From Pseudomonadales bacterium (lineage in GTDB: Bacteria; Pseudomonadota; Gammaproteobacteria; Pseudomonadales; Azotimanducaceae): 64,000 bases of DNA. The translations under genes were made by a program, and so were the position numbers. Positions 2,625 to 44,848 of this stretch are shown piece after piece (position 1 is the first letter of the stretch; the number at the start of each line of letters is the position of its first letter). The stretch spans positions 62,001-126,000 of the forward strand of contig JANQPF010000013.1 in NCBI GenBank assembly GCA_028285415.1, in the 5' to 3' direction. Below the pieces are notes generated by a model. The model saw only the letters and a program-made list of their open reading frames with translations. It did not search any database and was not told the origin of the DNA.

Positions 2625-3332
2625 TCAACGGCCAAATTTGAGCCAATCGTCGTCGACGGTCCAGGACACCCGCAAATTCCAGTGCTGCCCATCGTTGAAG
2701 CGTTCGAGCGTGGATGCACCATGGAGGTCGTTGTAGCCGAGACGCACGTCGACGGCACGAAAGGCGCGGGACAAGCCGACGTTACTGTAGGCGTAGCGTT
2801 CACCCACGACATCAGCAGTGAAGTGTTCACCACGCGTGACGTCCAGTATCAATCCCAGCGGCAGCGGATGCCGATAGGTGAGTTCCGCAACCTGGCTCTC
2901 TGCATTCTGCCCGAGCCAGTCGCGGCCATGTCCCAGCAGTACCGTCCACCGATCCATCACATGCAGCGCCAGCTGGAGTTCCGACCAGTCGTAAGCGCCC
3001 CTCGGCGTGTCGCGATCGAATCGGTAGCGCACCAGACTGATGTCCGTTGCCAGATGCTGGCCCCACCGTTTCTGCCAGCCGGCGAACAGATCCGTCTGCA
3101 ATGAGCGCTCGTCCTGCGGGTAGGAAACCCGGGCAGTCCAGACGCCCGCGTAAAATCCGTTGTCCATCTGATAGTCGAGCAGCGCATGCCAGGCAATCCC
3201 ATCGTGGGTCTGCAGGAGACCGCGGTAGAAGTGATTGTTGCCTGTGCCAATGCGCAGTCCCGGATCCGCCCACGCCGCGAAGCACCCAAGCGTGCCCACC
3301 AGGGCTAGCGTCAGCCTCAGCGAGCCGGACAC
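2625..3332 (-). CDS. TorF-family putative porin, 235 aa
   Basis: A signal peptide (MSGSLRLTLALVGTLGCFAAWA) is followed by amphipathic beta strands, with motifs such as NNHFYRGLLQT and YNDLHGAS. These are characteristic of the gammaproteobacterial TorF / TIGR02001 outer-membrane family. It starts at a GTG that overlaps the end of the upstream subtilase gene by 16 nt. It is therefore the last gene of a sigma / anti-sigma / protease / porin operon on the minus strand. Its role as target or sensor of that system is inferred from position only. Confidence 0.7.
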   Translation of the reverse strand: MSGSLRLTLALVGTLGCFAAWADPGLRIGTGNNHFYRGLLQTHDGIAWHALLDYQMDNGFYAGVWTARVSYPQDERSLQTDLFAGWQKRWGQHLATDISLVRYRFDRDTPRGAYDWSELQLALHVMDRWTVLLGHGRDWLGQNAESQVAELTYRHPLPLGLILDVTRGEHFTADVVGERYAYSNVGLSRAFRAVDVRLGYNDLHGASTLERFNDGQHWNLRVSWTVDDDWLKFGR

Positions 3333-4495
3333 AGCTTGCTGACCTCTATACCTTCGAGCACCGGCGGCTCCACCGTGCAGTCCGCCGCCTCCAGCCAGTC
3401 GAGCGCGGCCCGGGTGCTCGCCGGATTGTTGACGGCACGAATGACCGCTGCCATGCCGGACAAACCGGCCGCAGCCATAGACGAGCCGCTGAACACCCGG
3501 TAGCCGCCGCCGGCCTGTGTGCTCAGTTGCTCACCCTGGGCAAACCAGAACGGATTGTCCTCCCGCGCCGCCACAACGCCGTCAAGGTTGGCGGGGAAGT
3601 TCAAACTGCTCGGGCTGTTATCTGCCGCGATCACGACATGCCCGCGGTCCATGGCGCGTTTGATCAAGCTTTCGAGGAGTGGGTCGTCCGGCCCTGCGAG
3701 GCTGATGTTGAATATCTCGACATCGTCTTCGAGCGCCTCGCTGAGGGCCTTGGCAAGCGACAGCGACGTGCAGAGCGTTTCGTTGCCGCGTTCTGCACAA
3801 GCTGCAAACACCTGAATATCCGCAGCGGGTGCGAGGCCGACCAGACCTTCCCCGTTCCCCGAGGCGGCACCAATGATCCCGGCAACTGCGGTCCCATGAA
3901 GCCGGGCCGCGGTGCTATCGGATTCGAGAAATTCGATCTGACGCCGGATCTGCCCGGACAGATCCGGGTGGCCAACGTCCACTCCGCTATCGATGATCGC
4001 AACCCGCGCGCGCTCGCCGCGCGACACCGCGTGCACCTCCTGCAAGGCATGTTGGTAGCGGCCGTATTGCAAGGCAAATAGCGGATCGTCATACGCGGGC
4101 GCGGTGCGCGTCATCCCGGCAAAGCGATGATTCGGCTGCACGAGCTCTATGCGTGGGTCGGCCTGCAGCCTCGAGGTCAGCTGCGCCGCCGTTTCGTTCG
4201 AATCCGTCGCATAAGCCACACAGTAGACACCCAACGCCTCGATTGGCCAGGCTTCTATTTCAACCAGACCATGGTCGCGAGCAAACGCGTTCATGACTTT
4301 TCTGGCATGCAGCGTGACCGACCAGGTATGAGCGGCGCGGTAGGCATGCTGAGATCCGCCCGGCAGCGGGTCCCGAAACTGTCCCGCCTTGAACGTCACG
4401 AGCACATCCGCCCCCAGCTCCGTGCGGTTCCCGCCTTCATGCAACGCGCAGCCGCCCGAGACGAGCAGCAGCGCGGCGACGAACCAGCCTCTCAC
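3317..4495 (-). CDS. S8 subtilase lipoprotein with I9-type propeptide, 392 aa
   Basis: The chosen GTG at 4495 overlaps the anti-sigma stop (GTGA). It gives MRGWFVAALLLVSGGC, a lipobox with Cys16. Residues about 30-125 resemble an I9 inhibitor/propeptide domain (VLVTFKAG ... LTSRLQADPRIELVQPNHRF). The peptidase S8 domain has Asp169 (IIDSGVDVGHPDL), His200 (HGTAVAGIIGA) and Ser339 (SGSSMAAAG). The oxyanion region reads VVIAADNS, with Asp where subtilisins usually have Gly. It is a predicted membrane-tethered periplasmic or outer-membrane protease. The longer upstream frame was rejected because it lies inside the anti-sigma gene. Context implies a role in sigma-factor signalling or in maturing surface proteins. 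Confidence 0.85.
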   Translation of the reverse strand: MRGWFVAALLLVSGGCALHEGGNRTELGADVLVTFKAGQFRDPLPGGSQHAYRAAHTWSVTLHARKVMNAFARDHGLVEIEAWPIEALGVYCVAYATDSNETAAQLTSRLQADPRIELVQPNHRFAGMTRTAPAYDDPLFALQYGRYQHALQEVHAVSRGERARVAIIDSGVDVGHPDLSGQIRRQIEFLESDSTAARLHGTAVAGIIGAASGNGEGLVGLAPAADIQVFAACAERGNETLCTSLSLAKALSEALEDDVEIFNISLAGPDDPLLESLIKRAMDRGHVVIAADNSPSSLNFPANLDGVVAAREDNPFWFAQGEQLSTQAGGGYRVFSGSSMAAAGLSGMAAVIRAVNNPASTRAALDWLEAADCTVEPPVLEGIEVSKLCPAR

Positions 4496-5079
4496 CGCTC
4501 CCACTCCGCCCACGCTATGGACGGATGCGCGCGCAACCGCTGCACATAGCGATCGGGTTCGGCAACCGGTTCGAGCGCAATCCGATACACGCCACGCGGT
4601 GACGGGTTCCCGAGCAGTTCCGCGCCGGTGTCCATGAGCAGCATGCGAATATCTCTTTCGGGGGTCTCCGGATGGAACATCACCTGGACAACCAGCGCGT
4701 CCGAGCTCACTGCGGGTGCGGTGAGGCCACGATACATTACCGCTTCCTCCCGCGGAGCGAGCCAAGCCACCCCGGCTGCGACAACCAGCACGCCGGCGGC
4801 CATGGCGAGAGCGGCGCGCGTAAAAGACTGCCGGCCCGGACGAGGCATCGCGTGACGCAGGCGCTGATAGTTTTCGTCACGGTCGGCAAGCAGCCGCCGG
4901 AGCGATGGATCAACCGTGCTTTGCATCTCGCGCATTTGCGCCTGGGTCTGCGCCAGCTCCGCCGCGCAGACGGCACAGCCGGCAAGATGCCGGTGATAGG
5001 CGGCCATATCCGCCTCGTTCAGCGTGCCGTTGGCATACCAGGGTAACAGCGCGCACAAATCTCGATCGACAGCTTCCAC
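4492..5079 (-). CDS. Zinc-type anti-sigma factor with C-terminal I9-like domain, 195 aa
   Basis: The N-terminus carries a zinc anti-sigma motif, His31-x3-Cys35-x2-Cys38 (HLAGCAVC). A transmembrane helix lies at about 90-113 (ALAMAAGVLVVAAGVAWLA). The periplasmic tail (about 125-195) has the strand-helix-strand pattern of a subtilisin propeptide: VVQVMFHPETPERDIRMLL, GVYRIALEP, LRAHPSIAWAEWE. It is similar in layout to the propeptide of the neighbouring subtilase. The GTG start directly follows the sigma-factor stop, and its own stop overlaps the protease start. It should sequester the cognate ECF sigma factor at the membrane. Anti-sigma identity is well supported; the I9 reading is my inference. 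Confidence 0.8.
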   Translation of the reverse strand: MEAVDRDLCALLPWYANGTLNEADMAAYHRHLAGCAVCAAELAQTQAQMREMQSTVDPSLRRLLADRDENYQRLRHAMPRPGRQSFTRAALAMAAGVLVVAAGVAWLAPREEAVMYRGLTAPAVSSDALVVQVMFHPETPERDIRMLLMDTGAELLGNPSPRGVYRIALEPVAEPDRYVQRLRAHPSIAWAEWER

Positions 5080-5565
5080 TCAGGCCTCCAGCATCGCGCG
5101 CAGGCGCTTGCGCGCGTGAAACATACGGGTTTTCACAGTGTTCTCCCGGCACTTCAAGATGGCGCCAATTTCGCGGTAGGAGTAGCCGAACTCGTAGGTC
5201 AGCACGACCACCGCTTTTTGTGCCGGCGGCAGACTGGCAATTGCCGACTGCAGCTCGCCCTGGGACTCCACCGCACTCGTCACCGAGTCGACCAAGGGTA
5301 CCGGTCGTTCCCGACGCAGCGCTTTGAGCATCTTCTTGTAGGCAATGCCCATGATCCAGGTCGATGGGCTCGACGCGCCGCGGAAGGAGCCGGCGCTCTG
5401 CCAGACCACAAGAAAAACGTCATTGATGACCTCCTCCACCAGCCCGCGATCACGCGTCAGGCGTAGCAAAAAACGCCCGAGGCGCGGATAGAAAGACGTA
5501 TACAGGGCTTCCAACGCCTGTTCATCCGCCCGCGCGACGCGTTCGAGCAGCTCGCGTTCCGTCAC
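5080..5565 (-). CDS. ECF RNA polymerase sigma factor, 161 aa
   Basis: Region 2 (LEALYTSFYPRLGRFLLRL, EEVINDVFLVVW) and region 4 (SLPPAQKAVVVLTYEFGYSY, then REIGAILKCRENTVKTRMF) are clear, and the length is usual for the ECF group. It starts at GTG 5565 and is the first gene of the operon with anti-sigma, subtilase and porin. The intergenic region upstream holds two divergent, similar promoter-like elements. This suggests that the factor drives both its own operon and the divergent CHRD/porin pair. Confidence 0.92.
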   Translation of the reverse strand: MTERELLERVARADEQALEALYTSFYPRLGRFLLRLTRDRGLVEEVINDVFLVVWQSAGSFRGASSPSTWIMGIAYKKMLKALRRERPVPLVDSVTSAVESQGELQSAIASLPPAQKAVVVLTYEFGYSYREIGAILKCRENTVKTRMFHARKRLRAMLEA

Positions 5566-29550: not shown

Positions 29551-29582
29551 TTTGAACGAATCACGGGTAGCACGTTACTCAT
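29551..29582 (+). promoter_or_regulatory. ECF promoter copy 3 (before secreted 122-aa protein)
   Basis: TTTGAACG (29551-29558), 15 nt, GTTACTCAT (29574-29582). Same elements and exact spacing as the promoters at 35155 and 41248. Lies 31 nt before the ATG at 29613. Confidence 0.75.
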
Positions 29583-29612: not shown

Positions 29613-29981
29613 ATGAAAACGATTTCGATCATCGCAGTGCTGGCTATCAGTCTGCTGGTGCAGGCTGTCCACGCCTCCGGCTGGAGCAATGTTGCCATCA
29701 ATGGCCAGCGCCTGACCGTCGCACAGCTCCAGCAGCTCGAAATTGCGATCGGCTCGCAGATTGCGCCCGGCGCTTACCTCGTGGATGCGCAAGGCTGCTG
29801 GGCCAATCTCAGCACGGGCGAAGTGGGCTGTCTTGGCTCGGTTGATACCCACTCTCGGTACGGCAGCGGTGAGCGCACCAGCGACGGCAGCTGGAATCAC
29901 TACAGCAATTCAGCCGGCATGGGCGTCGGCGGCACCAGCGACGGCTGCATCTATACCACCACCGGCTGGTCCAACTGCTGA
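29613..29981 (+). CDS. Small secreted protein, 122 aa
   Basis: Ribosome binding site AAGGA. Signal peptide MKTISIIAVLAISLLVQAVHA; the mature protein starts SGWSNVAINGQRLTVAQLQQ, has a helix, then a Gly/Ser/Thr-rich C-terminus (GSGERTSDGSWNHYSNSAGM) with two cysteine pairs and ends TTGWSNC. No family is recognised. The promoter links it to the sigma factor at 35221 and the EDND-repeat locus, so it may be another surface component. Confidence 0.7.
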   Translation: MKTISIIAVLAISLLVQAVHASGWSNVAINGQRLTVAQLQQLEIAIGSQIAPGAYLVDAQGCWANLSTGEVGCLGSVDTHSRYGSGERTSDGSWNHYSNSAGMGVGGTSDGCIYTTTGWSNC

Positions 29982-33501: not shown

Positions 33502-34095
33502 TCACTGCCGGCCAATCAAAGCAGCCGCTGACGGCGGCGCATCGTCGAGCGTTTTCTGCAGCGCCCGCCGGGCGTAGTGCATGCGCGTGCGCACCGTGGC
33601 TGGAGGACAACCCACAATCTCAGCAATCTCCTGATAGGAGCATTCGTGAAAGAACGTCAGCTCGAGCACATCTCGATGCTCCGCGCTGAGCCGCCGGAGC
33701 GACTCAAGCAAGAGCTTTCGCAAACGCGCGCGTTCCTCATCGCTGCGCAGCGCTTCGATCTCATGGTTGTCATCTTCAAGCCACTCGCCCTGTTCCGGCA
33801 TATAGCTCAGCCACTGCTTGCCGCGCATAGCGTTGAACGCTTTGTTTCTCGCAATGCCGAGCATCCAGGTCGTGACCTTCGCTTCACCGCGAAAAGATCG
33901 CGCACAGCGCCATATCTCCAGCGCTACGTCGTTGGCCGTTTCCTCTGCAAGCGCCGGGTCCTGGGTCAGCCGTAGCAGGTAGCGATAGATCCGCTCTCCA
34001 TGACGGTCGAGAAACCGTTCGAGAGCCTGCTGATCATTCGCTGCCATTCGCTTCACGAGATCGATGTCCGTATCTGCCTCAGCGGCGACGCCCAT
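33502..34095 (-). CDS. ECF RNA polymerase sigma factor, 197 aa
   Basis: ATG 34095 gives MGVAAEADTDIDLVKRMAAN, a typical ECF start; upstream in-frame codons lack ECF features. Region 2 (ALERFLDRHGERIYRYLLRL, AEETANDVALEIWR) and region 4 (LRRLSAEHRDVLELTFFHEC, YQEIAEIVGCPPATVRTRM) are clear. It is closely related to the sigma factor at 35221. No anti-sigma gene is adjacent; the outer-membrane protein gene follows directly. Confidence 0.9.
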   Translation of the reverse strand: MGVAAEADTDIDLVKRMAANDQQALERFLDRHGERIYRYLLRLTQDPALAEETANDVALEIWRCARSFRGEAKVTTWMLGIARNKAFNAMRGKQWLSYMPEQGEWLEDDNHEIEALRSDEERARLRKLLLESLRRLSAEHRDVLELTFFHECSYQEIAEIVGCPPATVRTRMHYARRALQKTLDDAPPSAAALIGRQ

Positions 34096-34254
34096 GCTGA
34101 CCACTCCCGGTGATTGCGCGACAGAGCTTACGCGGCGTCGCTTGCAGGGTTTGCCACCTGAATTGCGTACACGGGTGAACAGATTCACGGCGAGACGCCA
34201 CATATCAACAGACGCCACCCCGGCACCCACTCAACCCCTCAAAGGAGACCTTCC

Positions 34255-34857
34255 ATGACTTTCAAACCCTTCTTACGAAACGCCCTGGCTGGCATGCTGC
34301 TGATGGCGCTCGTCAGCCCCATGGCCGTCCATGCCGCCCCGTGCGAGCTGGAGCGAAACGAGCACGGCATGTGGATCAGCAACTGCTCGATCAAAGATCT
34401 CTTCGGTGAAATCATCGAAGTTGAGCTCATCCCGACGCCGATATGGATCGGACTGCCGGATCTGTATGCAGATGACGGCGACTACTACGTCAACGGCACT
34501 GTGGTAGAAGTTGAGGTGCGCACCGGCAACAGCGGCCCGATGAACGCACGAGATTTCGACGTCACGGCGCAGATCGACATCAAATACCCGAACGGTACGG
34601 TCTACAGCTCCGCAACCGTCACCGGACGAGTGCCCGGAGTGGCTTCCGGTCAGCGCGTTCGCACCGTGCTCGGCACGGTGACGGTTCCCGACCGCGTCTC
34701 CGACTGGGACGTGCACACGACGTTCTATGTGGATTCCGCCGGGATGTCAGGCGGCGGCGAGATCTGGGAGCTCGACGAGACCAACAACGTCTTCGATGAC
34801 GGCATATGTCGGGTGTACGGCAAGGATCCTGATGTGACCGTTGGCCCCTGCCAGTAG
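34255..34857 (+). CDS. Secreted CARDB-like protein, 200 aa
   Basis: Ribosome binding site AAAGGAG. Signal peptide ending VSPMAVHAA. The mature part has PDLYADDGDYYVNGTVVEVE, VRTGNSGPMNARDFDV and WELDETNNVFDD, the adhesion-type CARDB/Ig-like beta-sandwich pattern, plus two cysteine pairs. Divergent from an ECF sigma gene, suggesting that sigma factor may control it. Function as a surface or adhesion protein is inferred. Confidence 0.7.
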   Translation: MTFKPFLRNALAGMLLMALVSPMAVHAAPCELERNEHGMWISNCSIKDLFGEIIEVELIPTPIWIGLPDLYADDGDYYVNGTVVEVEVRTGNSGPMNARDFDVTAQIDIKYPNGTVYSSATVTGRVPGVASGQRVRTVLGTVTVPDRVSDWDVHTTFYVDSAGMSGGGEIWELDETNNVFDDGICRVYGKDPDVTVGPCQ

Positions 34858-35154: not shown

Positions 35155-35187
35155 TTTGAACCGATTCCCGCCAGCCTGTTACTCAAT
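35155..35187 (+). promoter_or_regulatory. ECF promoter copy 1 (autoregulation of sigma gene)
   Basis: TTTGAACC (35155-35162), 15 nt, GTTACTCAAT (35178-35187), 33 nt before the sigma gene ATG. GAACC is a common ECF -35 element. Identical in both boxes to the copy at 41248-41280. Confidence 0.8.
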
Positions 35188-35220: not shown

Positions 35221-35859
35221 ATGTCGTCAGCACAGTTGAGCGTTATGTCGGCACAAGTACCAGCCGGACAAGAGGATCGCGCGACTTCAGAGGATGTCGA
35301 GCATGTCCTCGTTGCACGCATCGCTCAGGGTGACAAGCAGGCCTTCGAATTGCTGTTCAAACACTACGGCGAGCGGGTTTTCCGCTACGCATTCCGCTTG
35401 ATCAGCAACGCATCGAAAGCAGAAGAGGTCACCAACGACGTCATGCTCGAAGTCTGGAAAAACGCCGCCAAGTTCGAAGGTCGCTCGAAGGTGAGCACCT
35501 GGATACTGGGCATCACCCGGCACGTAGCGCTCAACGCCGTGCGCCGCAAAGAATTCAACACGATCGACGTCGAACACGCCCCGGAAATTGCAGACCCGAA
35601 CGAGAGCGTGGCGGAGGTCGACCGGGACCGCACGACGCTGAAAGCGGCGTTGCGGAGCGCGCTGGGCCAATTATCCACCGAACACCGGGACGTCGTGGAG
35701 CTGACCTTCTTCCACGGCTGCTCCTACCAGGAGATTGCCGCGATCGTGCAGTGTCCGGAAAACACCGTGAAAACCAGGATGTTTCACGCGAAGAAGCAGT
35801 TGCAGGGATTGCTCGTCGAAGCTGGCATTGACCCCGCCAGCGTGGAGATGGCGTCATGA
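35221..35859 (+). CDS. ECF RNA polymerase sigma factor, 212 aa
   Basis: After a 30-residue extension, region 2 (AFELLFKHYGERVFRYAFRL, AEEVTNDVMLEVWKN, WILGITRHVALN) and region 4 (LGQLSTEHRDVVELTFFHGC, YQEIAAIVQCPENTVKTRMF) are complete. The stop overlaps the anti-sigma start by 4 nt. The sequence upstream carries the bipartite promoter found before two other secreted-protein genes in the window, so it is likely autoregulated and controls a surface-protein regulon. Confidence 0.93.
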   Translation: MSSAQLSVMSAQVPAGQEDRATSEDVEHVLVARIAQGDKQAFELLFKHYGERVFRYAFRLISNASKAEEVTNDVMLEVWKNAAKFEGRSKVSTWILGITRHVALNAVRRKEFNTIDVEHAPEIADPNESVAEVDRDRTTLKAALRSALGQLSTEHRDVVELTFFHGCSYQEIAAIVQCPENTVKTRMFHAKKQLQGLLVEAGIDPASVEMAS

Positions 35860-36536
35860 ACAGACAAGAAGCAGAAGAGCTGTTGCCCTGGTTTGTTGCC
35901 GGTAGCTTGAACGCGGACGAAACCCGCGCGGTGCAGGCGTTCATCGACAGCGGAGAAATCAGTGCCGCTGAGCTGAACGAAGTGTCGCTCTTTGCCGAAA
36001 CGATCAACGAGCAGTCGGCGCACGAGCCCGAATACAATCCCGCCATTCTCGACAACGCCATGGCAAAACTCGACGCGGTGGTACAGGAAGCGTCCGATGA
36101 GCCACTCATCGTGCGCGAGCCAATCGCTGAACCCGGGCTTCTCGAACGGATCAGCACGTTCTTCAAATGGGACGACACGCCGCGCATGGCCAAGCTTGCC
36201 ATCGGCGCCCAGTTTGCCGCGGTGCTGGCCATGGTCGTGTTCGTGACCGCATCCGACAACGGCGGTTCGTTCTTCCCCCGCGGGGCAGCAACGTACGAAA
36301 CGGTATCCGGCACGGCCGCAGTCACAACGGCAGATTTGACGATCGCGTTTGCTGCGGACACAACGCTCGAGGAAGTGACGGCACTCCTCGCCACAGTGGA
36401 CGGTCGCATCGTCGACGGCCCCAACAGTCTTGGCATGTACAACATTGCGCTGCCGGAAGATGCAGACGTCACGGCGCTCCAGACTGAGCTCAGTGCAAGC
36501 GCGCTGACCACGTTCGTGCAGCCGGTGCAGCCATGA
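35856..36536 (+). CDS. Anti-sigma factor with C-terminal I9-like domain, 226 aa
   Basis: The N-terminus NRQEAEELLPWFVAGSLNAD is an anti-sigma domain start, but the H-x3-C-x2-C zinc motif is absent. A transmembrane helix lies at about 110-130 (KLAIGAQFAAVLAMVVFVTA). The periplasmic tail (about 150-226) reads TADLTIAFAADTTLEEVTAL, VDGRIVDGPNSLGMYNIALP and ALTTFVQPVQP, a beta-alpha-beta pattern of subtilisin propeptides like that in the other anti-sigma factor in this window. 4-nt overlaps with the sigma factor before and the subtilase after. Confidence 0.8.
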   Translation: MNRQEAEELLPWFVAGSLNADETRAVQAFIDSGEISAAELNEVSLFAETINEQSAHEPEYNPAILDNAMAKLDAVVQEASDEPLIVREPIAEPGLLERISTFFKWDDTPRMAKLAIGAQFAAVLAMVVFVTASDNGGSFFPRGAATYETVSGTAAVTTADLTIAFAADTTLEEVTALLATVDGRIVDGPNSLGMYNIALPEDADVTALQTELSASALTTFVQPVQP

Positions 36537-38077: not shown

Positions 38078-40124
38078 ACACGCCTTTCTTTTCGGCTGCC
38101 TCACGCTGCCCTTCCTGCTGGGCGCGACCACCGAGCCCGTCAACTCCGACGACGAGACGGCGCTCCTTGCACCTGTCACCGATGCGACGGTTGAAACCGC
38201 GGCCCTGGATGCGCCGGTACCCGTCTCGCGCATGGAGCCGGTCACAATCAATCTGCCGGATCCAACGCGCAACGTGCTGCTCACGAGCACAACCGAAGTG
38301 CAGTCCTGGCTCGAGCAGAACCAGATCATCAACGCTCGCGTGCTGCGCCAGGGTCGCCAAAACCTCGTGCAGTTCAACATGTCCGAGTCCCAGTGGCAGC
38401 AGCGCGAAGCGTCCATCTGTGGACAGAGCGGCGTTGCCGCCTGTGAAACGAGTGTCTGCCAGGGCATCCAGGCCAGCGACAGCGGCAATGCCAAAGCGCG
38501 CATCATGCGCAAGGCACCCGAAGTCGAAACCGCCGAGGCGGCGGGCGGCGAAGGCGGCATGTGTCGGAACGTTGACCCCATTCCCCCGCTCGCCAGCGAA
38601 GCCGGCCCCGGCGTGGCCCTCGACCTTGATCTCCGTGGATTGAGCGACAACGGCGCGGACAGCACCCGGGCAGAGACCGCGGACACCCAGGCGGTCGCAT
38701 CCCCGGAAAAGGAAGTCGCCGAGGCTCCGCCGGAACCGACGACAGCCGAATCGGCAGAGGTGTCCGCAACGCCCGAGGAGGCGTTTGACCCCTATGCCCC
38801 TGCAGAACCGACCCACAACGCCGCCGATTTTGCGCTCAACGTCCTGGCCAGCAGCGCCGACAGCATCACCCTGGAAGCGTCCAACCTGCCCGCGGACACC
38901 ACCGGCTACGAGGTTCTCGTCGGCGAAGGCTGTCGCACCACCACCGTACCGCTATCGAGCGTGGCGCCCGCGCACATTCCAAGCCTGGTTGTCGCAATCG
39001 TCTCCGGCAACGCGAGCCAGATCGGCAGCAACTACGGCCTTTCCATCATCAGCGAAAGTCAGCTCACAAGCACCGGCGATACCATTGCAGTCTACTTCGG
39101 CGTGCAGCCCATCGTGCAGACGCTGGCGGCCCTGGCGCTGGATCCGGCCGTATCGGCGGTCAGCCGCGAGCACGTCTTCGAGACCACCGCCGGTCCGGTC
39201 TATTCGGATCCGATGGCGCAGTTCAATTACGGTCCGGGTCAGACGGGCGCGCTGGCGCTGCACCCGGCTTCCGACGGGGCCGGACAGACCATTGCCGTCA
39301 TCGACACCGGCGTCGCCGTGGATCACCCGGACCTGAAAGATCCGGACCAGCCGGATCGCATCGAAGCGCTGGATCTGACAGGAAAAGGTTGGAGCAGTGA
39401 CGCTCACGGCACTGCAGTTACCGGCATCATCGCCGCCGCGGCCGACAACGCGCTCGGCACCTACGGCGTCGCCCCGGCCGCAAAAATCCTAGCGCTCAAA
39501 GCCTGTCAGCCCAACGAAGAAAACGGCTTGGCCGCGCGCTGCTGGACCAGCACGCTGGTGAAAGCGCTGGACGCTGCGATTGCCCGCGACGCGCAGATCA
39601 TCAACATGAGTCTCGCCGGGCCACCTGACGATCTCGTGGCTAAATACGTCGCCCTGGCCGTTTCGCAGAATCGGCTGATCATCGCCGGCGCAGGCAACGG
39701 CGGCGCCGAAGCGGGCGCGGCTTACCCCGCGGCTCTGCCCGGCGTGCTCGCCGTAACCGCCGTCGATCAATTCAACGCGCCTTACCAGCAGGCGAACCAG
39801 GGTGAGTACGTGGACCTCGCAGCGCCAGGCGTCGACATCCTCACCCTGGCACCGGATGGCACCTTTCCGTTGTCTTCGGGCACTTCATGGGCAGCCGCCC
39901 ACGTCAGCGGCATCGCCGCGCTGATCAGGCCGCTCATGCCGCTGTCGAACGCCAGTGACATTGCCCTTGTGCTCAGCAGTCAGGCTCGCGATCTCGGCAC
40001 CGCGGACAAAGATCCACAGTTCGGCAACGGCATCGTCGATGCGTGTGCCACCGCCGCGGCCGCAAGCGCCGATGCCATCACCTGCACCCCAACCGGGGAG
40101 GAGACCCGTCATGTACCGCGTTAG
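38070..40124 (+). CDS. S8 subtilase with long cysteine-containing pro-region, 684 aa
   Basis: A signal peptide (about 1-20) is followed by a pro-region of nearly 390 residues. It includes a helical part with several cysteines (EASICGQSGVAACETSVCQG), an acidic Ala/Glu/Pro/Thr linker (about 190-250) and a second domain (about 250-390). The catalytic domain has Asp412 (IAVIDTGVAVDHPDL), His446 (HGTAVTGIIAA) and Ser606 (SGTSWAAAHVSG). Cysteines in the catalytic domain (KACQPNE, RCWTS) may form disulfides. Predicted secreted or periplasmic. Overlaps the previous protease gene by 8 nt, so two different subtilases are made together. Confidence 0.88.
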   Translation: MNRHAFLFGCLTLPFLLGATTEPVNSDDETALLAPVTDATVETAALDAPVPVSRMEPVTINLPDPTRNVLLTSTTEVQSWLEQNQIINARVLRQGRQNLVQFNMSESQWQQREASICGQSGVAACETSVCQGIQASDSGNAKARIMRKAPEVETAEAAGGEGGMCRNVDPIPPLASEAGPGVALDLDLRGLSDNGADSTRAETADTQAVASPEKEVAEAPPEPTTAESAEVSATPEEAFDPYAPAEPTHNAADFALNVLASSADSITLEASNLPADTTGYEVLVGEGCRTTTVPLSSVAPAHIPSLVVAIVSGNASQIGSNYGLSIISESQLTSTGDTIAVYFGVQPIVQTLAALALDPAVSAVSREHVFETTAGPVYSDPMAQFNYGPGQTGALALHPASDGAGQTIAVIDTGVAVDHPDLKDPDQPDRIEALDLTGKGWSSDAHGTAVTGIIAAAADNALGTYGVAPAAKILALKACQPNEENGLAARCWTSTLVKALDAAIARDAQIINMSLAGPPDDLVAKYVALAVSQNRLIIAGAGNGGAEAGAAYPAALPGVLAVTAVDQFNAPYQQANQGEYVDLAAPGVDILTLAPDGTFPLSSGTSWAAAHVSGIAALIRPLMPLSNASDIALVLSSQARDLGTADKDPQFGNGIVDACATAAAASADAITCTPTGEETRHVPR

Positions 40125-41124
40125 CGCGCTCGTCTTTCTGGGATTGATTCTCGCACCGCTCGGCGGTCACGCCGGCGGCGGCTACATCCCGCCGAGCGAC
40201 AAAGGCGATTTCCAGTATTCCAGCCCGTCCGCCTACCCACAGATTGATCTCGATCTCGGTCCCATCCAGCGGGAGGTTGCTACCGCGGCGGCCACGCGCT
40301 GCGGCACGCCGCTGGCAGCTTCACCACTGGACCTCGGCAATGCCGAGAGCTTCATGGGCAAAATGGTGGGCAAGGCCGCTAACGCTGCAATCGGTCAGCT
40401 GGTCGGCGGACTGCTCGGCGGCGGCGGGGGTAGCAAGAAGAAGCCGAAGATGGCAAAAGACCCCATCAAGAAAAAGTACAAGCAGAAAATTGAGCATCCC
40501 GACGGGGACGCGCGACTGCGCATCGGTGGGCAGAAGTACGCTGACGGCTTTCTCATCAGCGCCCGGGTCGACAAAGCGAAAGGCAAAGGCACGTTTCACA
40601 CCATGTTCCTTGAGCAACCCGACTGCTCGCGCATCTGGCCCGAACAATACCTGCAGTATGGCCTGTGGGGCAGCTGGAGCCTGTCCGTATCGGTGACTAC
40701 CACCCGCTCCACGTATCGCGACGGCCAGCTGGTCGACCGCTCGACGTCGCAATCCGGCTGGTCCCGCTCCGGCGACTTCGACTTCAACCGTGGCTTCTCG
40801 CTGTGGGACCAGCTGCCCGGTGAAACCCAGCGGCTCGTACTCGATGCGGACGAGGCTTATCTCACGCAGCTGAGGCGCCAGATCGACGTGCCGGCCTGGC
40901 AGCAGATGGGCTATGCCAAACCCGCGGAAGGCATTCGCGCCGCCGGAGGCGTTTTCCGTCTCGACCCTGCTGAACTCTCACCGGATACCCTGGCAGTGGT
41001 GCACATCACGAATGTGGACAACGGGCGCTACCGTACCATCGGTTTCCCCATGCGCATGACCAATCAGGGCGACGGACTGGTGTCATTCGACCTGCATCCG
41101 GATTTTTCCCTGCCCGGCGATTGA
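40111..41124 (+). CDS. Secreted hypothetical protein, 337 aa
   Basis: ATG 40111 overlaps the protease end by 14 nt. Signal peptide (MYRVSALVFLGLILAPLGGHA), then GGGYIPPSDKGDFQYSSPSA, a Gly-rich hydrophobic stretch (AAIGQLVGGLLGGGGGSKKK, about 94-112) and a basic segment. A beta-rich C-terminal part follows (FHTMFLEQPDCSRIWPEQYL, YGLWGSWSLSVSVTTTRSTY). The Gly-rich helix could insert in a membrane or pore. No family is recognised. Last gene before the promoter of the EDND-repeat gene. Confidence 0.7.
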   Translation: MYRVSALVFLGLILAPLGGHAGGGYIPPSDKGDFQYSSPSAYPQIDLDLGPIQREVATAAATRCGTPLAASPLDLGNAESFMGKMVGKAANAAIGQLVGGLLGGGGGSKKKPKMAKDPIKKKYKQKIEHPDGDARLRIGGQKYADGFLISARVDKAKGKGTFHTMFLEQPDCSRIWPEQYLQYGLWGSWSLSVSVTTTRSTYRDGQLVDRSTSQSGWSRSGDFDFNRGFSLWDQLPGETQRLVLDADEAYLTQLRRQIDVPAWQQMGYAKPAEGIRAAGGVFRLDPAELSPDTLAVVHITNVDNGRYRTIGFPMRMTNQGDGLVSFDLHPDFSLPGD

Positions 41125-41247: not shown

Positions 41248-41280
41248 TTTGAACCCCCCGACAAACCCCCGTTACTCAAT
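41248..41280 (+). promoter_or_regulatory. ECF promoter copy 2 (before EDND-repeat gene)
   Basis: TTTGAACC (41248-41255), 15 nt, GTTACTCAAT (41271-41280), 54 nt before the ATG. Both boxes and the spacing are identical to the promoter of the sigma gene at 35155-35187. T-tracts at 41235 and 41244 just upstream may act as UP-like sequence. Confidence 0.8.
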
Positions 41281-41334: not shown

Positions 41335-42096
41335 ATGAAAAAATTTGCCCCCACTCTGATTGTTGCCGGATTGTTCGCAGCTGGCGCCGTCCACGCCGAT
41401 AGCCCCTACGCATCATGGGACGCTTCTCGTACCACGGACGTTGTCATCGAAGATTCGTTCAACCGCAGCACCTCTTCCGAGTACACCTCACAGTACAGCG
41501 AAGACAACGACGTTGCCGTCGACGTTCGCACCTCTGAGGACAACGACGTCAGCTCCTGGTACAGCTCCGAGGACAACGATTCTTCCAGCTGGTACTCACA
41601 CGTTGAAGACAACGACACGCACACCGAAGACAACGACATCACGGAAGACAACGACTACACCAGCACCATCGACTTCCAGATTGCCACGCCTACCCTGACC
41701 CAGCACAAATATCAGGACCAGCAGGCCGGTCATCAGGCAGGTCAAACGGTTGTTGGCGCCGCTCGCGGACACGAAGTTGGCGTTTCCGGCGGACCGACGG
41801 TCGTCAGCGCAGGCAACGACGAGCAGGTCTTCTACGGCCCGGCAATGGTGAACAACAACACCAACCAGCTCCCGCAGAACAACCTCTTCGTCCAGGGCAG
41901 CAACGGCGCACCGATCAGCCAGTCCAACACCTTCGCAGGTCGTGACATGGGTCCGAAGGGTGTGTTCGCACCGGTAGGCAACACGTCTGCCACGGTCTTC
42001 GGCGACACGCTGCAGAGCTCTGCCGGTCAGCTTGGCCAGTCTGGCGACTCGAGCAACTCGATTGCCGACCAGATGAACTCAGGCGTCAGCAAGTAA
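41335..42096 (+). CDS. Secreted EDND-repeat protein, 253 aa; likely export substrate
   Basis: Ribosome binding site CGGAG. Signal peptide (MKKFAPTLIVAGLFAAGAVHA). Residues about 45-115 carry six EDND units set in Ser/Thr/Tyr/Trp-rich sequence (SEDNDVAVDVRT, SEDNDVSSWYS, VEDNDTHT). The C-terminal half is rich in Asn, Gln, Gly and Val (NNNTNQLPQNNLFVQGSNG), as in amyloid or fibre-forming surface proteins. No cysteines. The acidic repeats may bind calcium. It has its own ECF promoter and is followed by a terminator-like hairpin, so is probably made in excess over the genes downstream, which include a CsgG-type exporter. Confidence 0.8.
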   Translation: MKKFAPTLIVAGLFAAGAVHADSPYASWDASRTTDVVIEDSFNRSTSSEYTSQYSEDNDVAVDVRTSEDNDVSSWYSSEDNDSSSWYSHVEDNDTHTEDNDITEDNDYTSTIDFQIATPTLTQHKYQDQQAGHQAGQTVVGAARGHEVGVSGGPTVVSAGNDEQVFYGPAMVNNNTNQLPQNNLFVQGSNGAPISQSNTFAGRDMGPKGVFAPVGNTSATVFGDTLQSSAGQLGQSGDSSNSIADQMNSGVSK

Positions 42097-42117
42097 GCCA
42101 GCTCCACCAACCTGAAC

Positions 42118-42136
42118 AGGGGGCCTCGCGCCCCCT
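42118..42136 (+). terminator. Attenuator hairpin after EDND-repeat gene
   Basis: AGGGGGC (42118-42124) pairs with GCCCCCT (42130-42136), followed by TCTCTTT. It lies between the EDND gene and the small secreted protein genes. Partial read-through would give high substrate and low exporter levels. Confidence 0.6.
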
Positions 42137-42155
42137 TCTCTTTGAGGACAAAACA

Positions 42156-42599
42156 ATGCGCCGACCCAATACCCTACTCCTCCTCGTTTCCCTGGCCGTG
42201 CTGGCCATCAGCTCCGGCGGCGTTAGCGCCCAGACTGGCCCCCAGGCTCAAGCCGCAGGACCAAGCAAAGAGCAGATCCTGCTGCAGCGCGTATACGAGA
42301 TGCGCATGCGCTTCGAACAGGAGCGAGCACAGCGCGACGCAGAAGCACGCGCCAACGTCCGCTTACAGACCCAGGGTGGTCTCGCGGGGCGCGCGGACAG
42401 CCCCACCGTATCGGGTCTGCGACAACAGACGAACCAGCAGCTTGCACGCTTCGAATCGAGCTTCCGCTGCCTGGACGTCGACGTGGAGGCCAACAGCGGC
42501 AACACCGTTGTCATCTGCGGTGACAACTCCGGCGACATCAACGGCACCAACGTCTCCGCACAGCGCGACATCGTCACCGTACAGGGAGGCCGCCCGTGA
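42156..42599 (+). CDS. Small secreted protein, 147 aa, of the CsgG-type locus
   Basis: Signal peptide (MRRPNTLLLLVSLAVLAISSGGVSA), a helical segment (ILLQRVYEMRMRFEQERAQRD, about 40-65), then a C-terminal beta-like stretch with Asn, Gly and Val (NSGNTVVICGDNSGDINGTN) and two cysteines. The tail resembles short fibre-subunit or nucleator segments in curli and holdfast-anchor systems, but no homology can be claimed. The stop overlaps the next start by 4 nt (GTGA). Confidence 0.7.
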   Translation: MRRPNTLLLLVSLAVLAISSGGVSAQTGPQAQAAGPSKEQILLQRVYEMRMRFEQERAQRDAEARANVRLQTQGGLAGRADSPTVSGLRQQTNQQLARFESSFRCLDVDVEANSGNTVVICGDNSGDINGTNVSAQRDIVTVQGGRP

Positions 42600-42895
42600 A
42601 ACGTTTCCTGATGATCCTCTTGATCGCGGGTTTTGCCGCCTCCAGCGCCAACGCCACACCCCCGTTCGGCCACTATCTCCACGGTTTTCTGCTGCTGCCC
42701 GAGCAGCGCTACGACCCCGCGGTGCAGCGCTATCTGGCGGAGCAATCGCTCAGGGCGCTGCCGCTCTACGACGGCCAGCTCTACTACGTTCACCCGGTCA
42801 GCAACGTCGGCACCTACAACGAGCAGATGCAGATCCGCTACCTGGAATCGATGTTGAGGGACAAGGTGAAAGACGATGAACCTGTCAGCGACTGA
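42596..42895 (+). CDS. Small secreted protein, 99 aa, of the CsgG-type locus
   Basis: GTG start in the 4-nt overlap. Signal peptide (MKRFLMILLIAGFAASSANA). The mature part (TPPFGHYLHGFLLLPEQRYD, ALPLYDGQLYYVHPVSNVGT) is short and Tyr/Pro-rich. By size and position it could be an accessory factor like CsgE/CsgF, but I see no sequence match. Confidence 0.65.
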   Translation: MKRFLMILLIAGFAASSANATPPFGHYLHGFLLLPEQRYDPAVQRYLAEQSLRALPLYDGQLYYVHPVSNVGTYNEQMQIRYLESMLRDKVKDDEPVSD

Positions 42896-42942
42896 CCGTG
42901 ACCTACGTCTGACCACCGCAAAATACACAAGGACCTGAGATC

Positions 42943-43938
42943 ATGACACGCTCCCGACTGATACTTCTCGTTTGCATGGGCCTGTTGCTGACCGCAGCCG
43001 TCGGCGTCGCAGAAGCAAAGAGCAAGAAGGACAAACCCATGAAAGCGGCCGCGCTGGAGCAGGCACTCGACAACATGCAGTGCTCCGGCCTGAAGCCCCG
43101 CGTCGCCATCTACGGGTTTTACGCGACCGGCAAGATGGCCGCATTCGAGGGCTATAACGTCGGTGACGGCCTGGCCGCCCAGCTTGCGACGGAGCTGACC
43201 CGCACCAACTGTTTCATCGTTCTGGACCGGACCGGCCTTTCCAACCTCCTGCGCGAGCAGGAACTCGGCCTCGCGGGCGTCGTCGGCCGCGAAACCGCGC
43301 CGGGCGCGGGACGGATCGTCGGGGCGGAAGTCATCATTAAAGGTACCGTGACCGAGTTCGATCCGAACAAGAAAGGCGGCGGCTTGACCCTCGGCATGGG
43401 CCTGCCCAACACGCCGCTCGGCATCCGGCTCGGACGCAACGGCAGCAAGGCGCACGTAGGTCTCGACATCTCCATCATCGATGCGACGACGGGGCACACC
43501 AAGTCTTCCCACCGCGTCATCGCGGACTCCAAAACCGGCGGCTGGACAATTGGCCTCGACTACAAGCGCGCCAGCCTCGGTGGCGACACGTTCGCCAAGT
43601 CGCCTCTCGGCGTTGCCTCACGCAACGCGCTCGGCCAGGCGGTACTGAAAATCGCCGAGGATCTGCAGCAATCCGTCGAGCGGCGCTTTCAGGTCGCCGG
43701 TACCGATGCCGGAGAGGTTTTCCTGAACGCGGATCGCGCTTCCGGCGTACGCGAAGGTGATCTCTTGAAAGTGTCCACGGTAGTGCGCCGTCTGGTGGAT
43801 CCGGCCACGGGACTCTTGCTCGACACCGTCGAGCGCGAGGTGGGCAAGGTGCGGGTGATCGAAGTCAACGAGCGCTACGCCCGGGCTGAGATCATCGACG
43901 GCGACAAGGTGCGCCGCGGCGACTTTGTCCACCTTTGA
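42943..43938 (+). CDS. CsgG/HfaB-family outer-membrane secretion channel, 331 aa
   Basis: KPRVAIYGFYATGK-like PRVAIYGFYATGKMA, GDGLAAQLATELTRTNCFIV, LDRTGLSNLLREQELGL and GAEVIIKGTVTEFDP are CsgG signatures; HVGLDISIIDATTGHTKSS is the transmembrane-hairpin region. Curli CsgG forms a nonameric export channel for amyloid subunits. Here the signal peptide ends in AEA with no lipobox cysteine, unlike CsgG. A C-terminal extension (about 245-331, VREGDLLKVSTVVRRLVDPA) resembles FlgT-C. It ends the unit, before a strong terminator. Confidence 0.85.
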   Translation: MTRSRLILLVCMGLLLTAAVGVAEAKSKKDKPMKAAALEQALDNMQCSGLKPRVAIYGFYATGKMAAFEGYNVGDGLAAQLATELTRTNCFIVLDRTGLSNLLREQELGLAGVVGRETAPGAGRIVGAEVIIKGTVTEFDPNKKGGGLTLGMGLPNTPLGIRLGRNGSKAHVGLDISIIDATTGHTKSSHRVIADSKTGGWTIGLDYKRASLGGDTFAKSPLGVASRNALGQAVLKIAEDLQQSVERRFQVAGTDAGEVFLNADRASGVREGDLLKVSTVVRRLVDPATGLLLDTVEREVGKVRVIEVNERYARAEIIDGDKVRRGDFVHL

Positions 43939-44005: not shown

Positions 44006-44599
44006 TTAGAACTCGACGCGTACGCCAGCCTGCCAGCTGGTGACGTCATCACCAAACTCGACACCGGCGCCCAGCGCAAAGTTCTCCGTGAAGTAGTAGC
44101 GACCGCCAAAGGCAAATGACGTGTCGTCACCGCCGTCATCGAGATCAACGTAGTTCACGCCACCTTCGAGCTCAATGTTGTCGGTCACTTTACCGCGCAG
44201 ACCAACGCCCGCGCCGTAGCCGTCGTCTTCAATATCACCAAACGGAGTATCTACCTCCGCATCGATGTAGCTCAGCGACGCGACGAAATCGAGCTTGTCG
44301 GTAATCGGGGCATGACCGCCGATACCAACCGCCCACTGATCGAGATCGACGCTGAAGTCGAACTCCTGGGTCCCGTACCCTGCGGTCAGGAAGAAGTTCT
44401 CACCCAGCTCGACGGAGCCGTTCAGCAACAGGCCGTCACCGTCGACGTCGAGACCATCGTCAATCTCCGTGTCCACGTAAGCCGCTTCGATGTAGTTGTA
44501 GCTCATGCCGTCGTCGGCCAGAGCCGGGGCTGCCATGCCGGCGCCCAGGGCAAAAAGACCAAAACCCATACTAATAAAACGATACTTCTTTGGTTTCAT
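44006..44599 (-). CDS. Outer-membrane beta-barrel protein, 197 aa
   Basis: ATG 44599 with an AGGAGAG ribosome binding site; signal peptide (FISMGFGLFALGAGMAAPALA). Eight acidic amphipathic strands (MSYNYIEAAYVDTEIDDG, FFLTAGYGTQEFDFSVDLDQ, WQAGVRVEF at the end) match small OmpA-like barrels. Function unknown; convergent with the CsgG locus. Confidence 0.8.
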   Translation of the reverse strand: MKPKKYRFISMGFGLFALGAGMAAPALADDGMSYNYIEAAYVDTEIDDGLDVDGDGLLLNGSVELGENFFLTAGYGTQEFDFSVDLDQWAVGIGGHAPITDKLDFVASLSYIDAEVDTPFGDIEDDGYGAGVGLRGKVTDNIELEGGVNYVDLDDGGDDTSFAFGGRYYFTENFALGAGVEFGDDVTSWQAGVRVEF

Positions 44600-44848
44600 T
44601 CGTACTCTCCTGTTCATTTCTCCAATGAGGTATTGCCGGTCACCGATGCCTTTTGACGACCTTGGGTGACACGACACGGTGGGCATCATGCTGCCGCCAA
44701 CCTGAACGAAAGCTTAAGGCGCGTCTTTTCAGTCTGGAATTTCTGCGCCAGTCCACACTTCCGCAACTTCGTTGCCCTAACTCTGACCAGTACCTTGTCG
44801 CCAACGCTCGACGATGGATAATCGATATCGGCAAACGAAGGAAAAGAT

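Follow-up and report, generated by a model that had tools for sequence, protein, structure and literature searches.

A putative ECF-sigma-controlled export locus of CsgG type with its own likely client in some uncultured gammaproteobacteria

The stretch of DNA analysed here (the window) comprises 64,000 nucleotides of contig JANQPF010000013.1 from a bacterium of the order Pseudomonadales (assembly GCA_028285415.1), and carries between positions 41,335 and 43,938 four consecutive open reading frames (ORFs) that encode a secreted protein with six EDND units (the EDND protein), two small secreted proteins of 147 and 99 amino acids, and a protein with a CsgG domain whose gene is called csgG below. 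This cluster, which is conserved in some uncultured gammaproteobacteria, appears to pair a relative of the curli channel with an unrelated, repeat-rich likely cargo and to switch on the two together. An earlier note, made from the sequence of the window, had described the four genes as a candidate new CsgG-type export system with the EDND protein as substrate. The four ORFs lie exactly where it placed them, and the pairing of the EDND and CsgG proteins is indeed conserved; the unit, on the other hand, is larger than was claimed, and the EDND repeat is not its constant part. Gene order in relatives places in the same unit an extracytoplasmic function (ECF) sigma factor, an anti-sigma factor, two subtilases and a 337-amino-acid secreted protein, all encoded upstream (Table 1). 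The predicted sigma and anti-sigma factors and subtilases, and a promoter-like sequence shared within the locus, are additions to the earlier description. Signal peptides, lipoboxes and the membrane segment of the anti-sigma factor were assigned by eye throughout.

In 200 genomes of the same family, belonging to 37 genera, a protein search recovered the EDND protein in 11, the window's own genome included. Relatives of the CsgG-domain protein of any kind occur in 47 of the 200, only 11 of which match at E <= 2.8e-118 with at least 60% identity; these are identical to the 11 genomes that have the EDND protein, and the next-best match drops to E = 2.6e-36 and 33% identity. A profile of the 99-amino-acid protein retrieves the same 11 genomes at E <= 1e-31 (six further matches in genus g8, inside ORFs of 670-687 amino acids and with E from 1.3e-4 to 7.8e-4, were treated as chance). 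With the genomes of L024 and L026 added to the 11, the set compared in detail numbers 13 (L022, L023, L025, L027, L028 and L029 were taken as G103, G157, G100, G066, G017 and G137 and counted once), and all 13 retain the order EDND-147-99-csgG. An EDND protein that lacks a CsgG neighbour, the observation named beforehand as fatal to the proposal, was not seen, every one of the 11 EDND genomes among the 200 having such a neighbour. As judged from gene order and co-occurrence, the EDND protein, the two small proteins and the CsgG-domain protein form one conserved unit. The named relatives are metagenome-assembled genomes, filed as Gammaproteobacteria, Pseudomonadales, Pseudomonadaceae or Proteobacteria.

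The 11 carriers are spread over seven of the 37 genera, and the locus is patchy, since at least the genera g1, g18 and g33 also include genomes in which no EDND protein was detected. Searches of 293 genomes of the order with the 147-amino-acid profile returned the own genome and a single doubtful place (G478, E = 0.0066), and the EDND profile in 369 genomes of the class returned the own genome only; because the ten known relatives were recovered in neither sample, these samples contain at most a few other carriers. The upstream order in relatives is ECF sigma factor, anti-sigma factor, subtilase A, subtilase B, 337-amino-acid secreted protein and then the EDND gene. The 337-amino-acid protein and subtilase B are present at the locus, whole or partial, in 11 of the 13 genomes; of the other two, G100 is a short contig, and G047 carries the sigma-subtilase block on a separate contig, the contig ends putting a minimum of about 45 kb between it and the EDND-csgG block, both blocks keeping the promoter-like site. 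Several stretches stop short of subtilase A and the sigma factor, so that these two are recorded at the locus in fewer genomes, and the draft genome G026 has the sigma and anti-sigma genes on another contig. At L024:3436-6005, a gene for an outer-membrane protein related to that at 44006-44689 of the window lies between two EDND genes, both of which have a motif of their own.

The CsgG-domain protein matches the Pfam CsgG domain (PF03783) with 97.4 bits against a cut-off of 20.8 (E = 9.1e-28), and surely belongs to the CsgG fold family. A profile search of the PDB returned E. coli CsgG as the nearest solved structure by sequence (E = 1.1e-6), with TsaP matching the C-terminal part as well (E = 0.031), while FlgT was absent from these sequence-based matches up to E = 10. 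Comparison with hhalign, two paralogs being added to the query, likewise aligned the protein to E. coli CsgG (96.6%, E = 5.3e-10), and gave no match to E. coli LpoB (0.5%). The CsgG alignment spans both of the regions that we take to form the membrane hairpins of E. coli CsgG, two per subunit, with gaps of 6 and 4+1 residues, LDYKRASLGG being aligned with IDYQRLLEGE, and the alternation of hydrophobic residues is strong at 147-164 in the first hairpin region. The C-terminal part is FlgT-like, as the earlier note had proposed, although the Pfam FlgT_C model scores 19.5 bits (E = 0.0014) and so stays below its cut-off of 27. The AlphaFold2 model has a predicted local distance difference test (pLDDT) score of 69, with values below 50 at, among others, residues 21-31 and 112-123. 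A second CsgG-domain protein of the own genome (L070:7242-8438, minus strand) resembles the window protein over residues 75-329 of the latter; none of the locus partners lies within the 16 kb stretch examined around it, and its neighbours are, by eye, presumably genes for an ABC transporter and a TonB-type receptor.

The EDND protein is the likely client. Its six EDND units compare with a mean of 0.008 in 1000 composition shuffles, and at the DNA level four of them are coded alike and two carry synonymous differences; Tandem Repeats Finder, at score 40, found no array there. The number of units ranges from 0 to 8 among 14 orthologs, two of which have none and carry SDDD. The mature protein is free of cysteine in all 14, two having a single cysteine that by eye lies inside the signal peptide, so that the earlier description of a secreted, cysteine-free protein with six units is borne out. 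The Asn/Gln/Gly-rich tail that it mentioned is also observed, as a C-terminal region that is better conserved among orthologs than the repeats. Directly after the signal peptide, P24, Y25 and W28 are invariant and D40, S41 and F42 nearly so. CsgA of curli has an N-terminal export segment, and by analogy the PY-x2-W and DSF segments are a candidate export tag. Curlin-like features were looked for and not found: none of the 14 orthologs matches Curlin_rpt (E up to 5) or contains the QxGxxN motif, and hhalign against CsgA and CsgB aligned nothing beyond signal peptides and chance stretches. The best PDB hit of the EDND alignment has E = 2.5, and an ice-binding beta-roll match (E = 0.0069) confined to one of the 14 proteins was treated as chance.

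Both small proteins are likely accessory factors. The larger has two cysteines in all 13 orthologs; its model, of pLDDT 61 overall and unreliable in the C-terminal half, shows a helix at residues 38-72. No Pfam match is shared by the members of the EDND, 147- and 99-amino-acid families, NCBIfam gave nothing of note for the window members, and the PDB profile searches ended at best E-values of 0.68 and 0.3 for the 147- and 99-amino-acid alignments, respectively; a YfkB match (E = 0.0037) in one of the 13 members of a small-partner alignment was not shared by the others and was set aside as chance. The profiles of both proteins gave only signal-peptide or chance matches to CsgE and CsgF in hhalign, as did that of the 147-amino-acid protein to CsgB. 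Because the hhalign templates were single sequences, a distant kinship of the EDND and small proteins with Csg proteins is possible. Searches of the 11 EDND genomes of the family, in which the E. coli control was positive, found neither CsgE nor CsgF in any of them (the genomes of L024 and L026 lay outside this search). The statement that no neighbour of csgG resembles CsgA, CsgB, CsgE or CsgF therefore holds at the sensitivity of the Pfam, PDB-profile, hhalign and genome searches used.

When the upstream regions are written side by side, a promoter-like sequence can be read from them, namely TGAACC, 15 bases, and GTTACTCA or GTGACCYA, which was condensed into the strict pattern TGAACC-N15-GTKACYYA and scored within 200 bp upstream of genes. 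This strict site precedes 13 of the 13 EDND genes with upstream DNA (the 14th EDND gene is cut by its contig and was left out of the upstream counts) and csgG in 12 of 13, is found upstream of none of the 13 genes for either small protein, and also precedes sigma genes, in the window and in relatives. The whole own genome contains six strict sites and none of a reversed-pattern control; three of the six belong to the sigma, EDND and csgG genes, and the others stand before a membrane protein without a Pfam match and, as a pair, before a TPR protein. Ten relatives together have 48 strict sites as compared to one in the control, 26 of which by position belong to sigma, EDND or csgG genes. Since the same rare site precedes the EDND, csgG and sigma genes, with six occurrences against none in the control, the genes for the EDND substrate and the CsgG channel probably belong to one sigma regulon. 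What weighs against a common regulon is that one of the 13 csgG genes lacks the strict site, that in relatives 22 of the 48 sites stand before genes other than these or are unassigned, and that the hits of the sigma, EDND and csgG genes themselves are not independent and arise partly by construction, the pattern having been derived from those genes. Independent support is provided by the low background, the absence of the site before the small genes, its persistence in G047 and the one-mismatch site at 29553. Within the window alone, four sites are reached at two mismatches or fewer, a number that was attained in one of 100 shuffles (mean 1.27).

Further genes are associated with the site. The 122-amino-acid protein behind the one-mismatch site by eye resembles a protein of G157 (C11:3573) that follows a strict site. 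The TPR protein (L105:268-780, minus strand; contig C29 of G000), encoded behind its pair of motif sites close to the end of a contig, is a regulon candidate. A protein of about 55 amino acids has the motif upstream in five genomes (L067:2076-2237, L068:2179-2328, L136:2544-2708, L138:2476-2646 and L127:787-951); its gene is divergent from the sigma gene in G066, G017, G047 and G137, and a weaker match (2.3e-4) is present in L130.

Table 1. Genes and promoter-like sites of the locus and an associated gene (window coordinates)
Feature	Position	Strand	Basis or remark
EDND protein, 253 amino acids, secreted, mature form cysteine-free	41335..42096	+	likely exported client
147-amino-acid secreted protein, predicted long helix, two invariant cysteines	42156..42599	+	likely accessory factor
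99-amino-acid secreted protein, mature form cysteine-free	42596..42895	+	likely accessory factor
CsgG-domain protein, 331 amino acids, FlgT-like C-terminal domain	42943..43938	+	PF03783 9.1e-28, hhalign, Foldseek
ECF sigma factor, 212 amino acids	35221..35859	+	Pfam Sigma70_r2 1.3e-15, r4_2 2.5e-15
Anti-sigma factor, 226 amino acids: zf-HC2-like N-terminus, membrane segment (by eye), subtilase-prodomain-like end	35856..36536	+	
Subtilase A, 514 amino acids	36533..38077	+	Pfam Peptidase_S8 2e-47, residues 64-352
Subtilase B, 684 amino acids	38070..40124	+	Pfam Peptidase_S8 3.1e-37, residues 403-654
337-amino-acid secreted protein (ATG chosen; ORF opens at 39955)	40111..41124	+	no Pfam or NCBIfam match
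Promoter-like site TGAACC-N15-GTTACTCA before sigma gene	35157..35185	+	
Promoter-like site before EDND gene	41250..41278	+	
Promoter-like site before csgG, overlapping 3' end of 99-amino-acid gene	42877..42905	+	
Promoter-like site, one mismatch, before gene of 122-amino-acid protein	29553..29581	+	
122-amino-acid secreted cysteine-containing protein, possible further regulon member	29613..29981	+	see one-mismatch site 29553..29581

The regulatory genes can be assigned to an ECF sigma factor and a zinc-finger-type anti-sigma factor on the basis of sigma regions 2 and 4 and of zf-HC2 matches in all eight anti-sigma orthologs (Pfam, E up to 1; best 1.3e-7). In four of the eight, and at the same threshold, the end of the anti-sigma factor also matches Fervidolysin_NPro, the fervidolysin prodomain, at best with 4e-5; the window protein itself stays below both cut-offs (zf-HC2 0.12; Fervidolysin_NPro 0.017, 15.9 against 21 bits, residues 165-217). 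The catalytic domain of subtilase A begins at residue 64, which leaves no space for a prodomain of its own after the signal peptide, and subtilase B has about 400 residues ahead of its catalytic domain, where the sole Pfam match is at chance level (0.17). A resemblance to a subtilase prodomain at the end of the anti-sigma factor, combined with the lack of space for one in subtilase A, suggests that the subtilases may be regulatory, and the prodomain-like end may act in trans on subtilase A. The earlier suggestion was that the adjacent subtilases could mature the fibre; it is more likely that they control the sigma switch than that they cut the client. In 34 of the 200 family genomes the anti-sigma factor has relatives at E <= 1e-5; these are strong (E <= 1.5e-65) in 11, namely ten of the 11 EDND genomes (the fragment G100 is missing) and G069. 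The window contains a second set of ECF sigma factor, zf-HC2 anti-sigma factor and subtilase at 3317-5565 on the minus strand; its anti-sigma factor does not match the prodomain model, and aligns with the profile of the locus anti-sigma factor in two pieces that include the prodomain-like part.

With slightly better than even confidence, we read the locus as a putative self-contained, ECF-sigma-controlled outer-membrane export system of CsgG type with its own client and accessory proteins. The membrane-bound anti-sigma factor would hold the sigma factor, which when freed would raise its own synthesis together with that of the EDND protein and the CsgG ring. The locus proteins would cross the inner membrane by the Sec pathway; the CsgG-domain protein would then form a ring in the outer membrane, each subunit contributing two membrane hairpins, and release the unfolded, cysteine-free EDND protein, the PY-x2-W and DSF segments behind its signal peptide serving as the export tag. 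The 147- and 99-amino-acid proteins could do jobs like those of CsgE and CsgF, either gating the channel or holding the client at the surface. A freely varying number of repeats would fit an exposed acidic spacer, the conserved C-terminal part of the EDND protein being the sticky or assembling part, and the subtilases would control the sigma switch. A more specific version of this last step, which we offer as a doubtful idea, is that the periplasmic end of the anti-sigma factor is a sensor that folds or holds subtilase A, whose release or action on the anti-sigma factor would free the sigma factor and so lead to the CsgG ring and the EDND protein, the state of the protease gating export. If this is true, CsgG-type export that employs no curlin, CsgE or CsgF would be gated by the protease state of the envelope, and if the prodomain-like end of the anti-sigma factor works in this way, it would represent a wiring from protease to transcription that was not found in the literature surveyed on ECF sigma factors and subtilases.

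That the CsgG-domain protein is a pore is likely, but several observations count against it. Foldseek ranks FlgT first (3.3e-16; template modelling (TM) score 0.53), in an alignment of 303 columns that takes in the entire model with its C-terminal domain; the flagellar ring that holds FlgT is next (1.1e-15; TM 0.53-0.57 for these matches), and CsgG comes behind (1.6e-9, TM 0.36, root mean square deviation 12.8), followed by PelC and other rings. FlgT is not known to be a pore, and because the fold comparison ranks it above CsgG, the pore is a matter of inference. E. coli CsgG is a lipoprotein, whereas no canonical lipobox is visible in any of the 13 CsgG N-termini, in agreement with what had been noted for the window protein; those of L024 and L064 carry -LAC-, which does not fit the lipobox consensus. 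Ranked by hydrophobic alternation, the second hairpin region falls outside the 25 best windows, and both supposed hairpins (144-166 and 199-215) are modelled at pLDDT below 50. The first rank of FlgT, the lack of a canonical lipobox and the unremarkable alternation of the second hairpin region, with the match to PelC and the presence of ABC-transporter-like genes (by eye) beside the own-genome CsgG protein that is alike over residues 75-329, would suit a ring or scaffold in the periplasm, below the outer membrane, that resembles FlgT or PelC and forms no pore, the EDND protein being held there or leaving by another way. We consider this rather unlikely: sequence searches of the PDB find CsgG and, up to E = 10, no FlgT, the alignment crosses both hairpin regions, the FlgT_C model at E <= 0.001 matches only this CsgG-domain protein in the own genome, and that below its cut-off, and no flagellar gene was found among the window proteins scanned (9 + 8), the rest of the genome lying outside that search.

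The export reading must also be set against the view that the locus is primarily a subtilase-centred island for sensing or defence, in which the EDND, small and CsgG proteins are merely output genes of a response to envelope damage. The prodomain-like end in half of the eight anti-sigma orthologs, the second sigma/anti-sigma/subtilase set on the minus strand, the wide occurrence of anti-sigma relatives (only 11 of the 34 being strong) and the sites before the TPR protein, the membrane protein and small proteins are all compatible with it, and the close anti-sigma factor of G069, a genome (77% complete, 680 contigs) in which neither EDND nor CsgG ortholog was detected, is a further point against the export reading. 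The fixed EDND-147-99-csgG block is left unexplained by such an island, and in G047 it sits apart from the protease block, so that we hold this alternative to be improbable. Membership in the curli system is rejected on the score of the CsgG equivalog model NF011731 (19.9 bits against 505), on the absence of curlin repeats and on the failure to find CsgE and CsgF. A genuine curli or holdfast-anchor system with subunits that have diverged past recognition would account for the location of a CsgG-family protein beside a secreted repeat protein that has an N/Q/G-rich C-terminal region; in view of those same results, of the missing QxGxxN motif and of the HfaB equivalog model, which is also far below its cut-off (12.8 bits against 300), it is very improbable.

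An outer-membrane export system of this kind would share with curli (CsgG, CsgE and CsgF with CsgA and CsgB) a CsgG-family protein aligned over the channel domain, a secreted likely client of variable repeat number, two small secreted proteins and a regulator in the locus. It differs in that no curlin repeats, CsgE or CsgF were found, in the lack of a canonical lipobox, in the extra FlgT-like domain and the subtilases, and in having an ECF sigma factor where curli has CsgD. The common fold links it to PelC and other CsgG-fold outer-membrane rings, whose partners differ from those among the neighbours scanned, and to FlgT, which is the best fold match of its CsgG-domain protein over the whole model and has a similar C-terminal domain, the sequence of that protein being nearer to CsgG. 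Another comparison is the holdfast anchor HfaABD of Caulobacter, which, according to PMC6707917, combines a CsgG-like protein on which surface proteins depend with two partners other than CsgE and CsgF; HfaA is described there as curlin-like, unlike the EDND protein. No NCBIfam match to Hfa families (E up to 1) was obtained for the EDND and small proteins of the window, no model dedicated to HfaA or HfaD having been run. As for the regulatory genes, PMC8999054 describes the ECF54 group, in which a subtilase likewise adjoins an ECF sigma factor and is proposed to act on sigma control, in that case without an anti-sigma factor, whereas here a prodomain-like anti-sigma factor lies between the sigma factor and the subtilase.

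CsgG-family proteins extend beyond curli: in a 2012 survey (PMC3521004), a table lists 171 of 601 under the Pfam CsgG model, and the text calls non-specific CsgG hits likely paralogs. We found no description of a system like the present one in the literature on CsgG relatives, ECF sigma factors and subtilases, most subscription papers being outside reach. With defined partners, a likely client and a probable sigma regulon now assigned to one non-curli CsgG, the function of such proteins becomes directly testable. Near the locus, the window also encodes a further ECF sigma factor, on the minus strand (33502-34230), and, at 34255-34857, a CARDB-like protein, below the cut-off of that model, relatives of which adjoin the locus only in L060 and L066.

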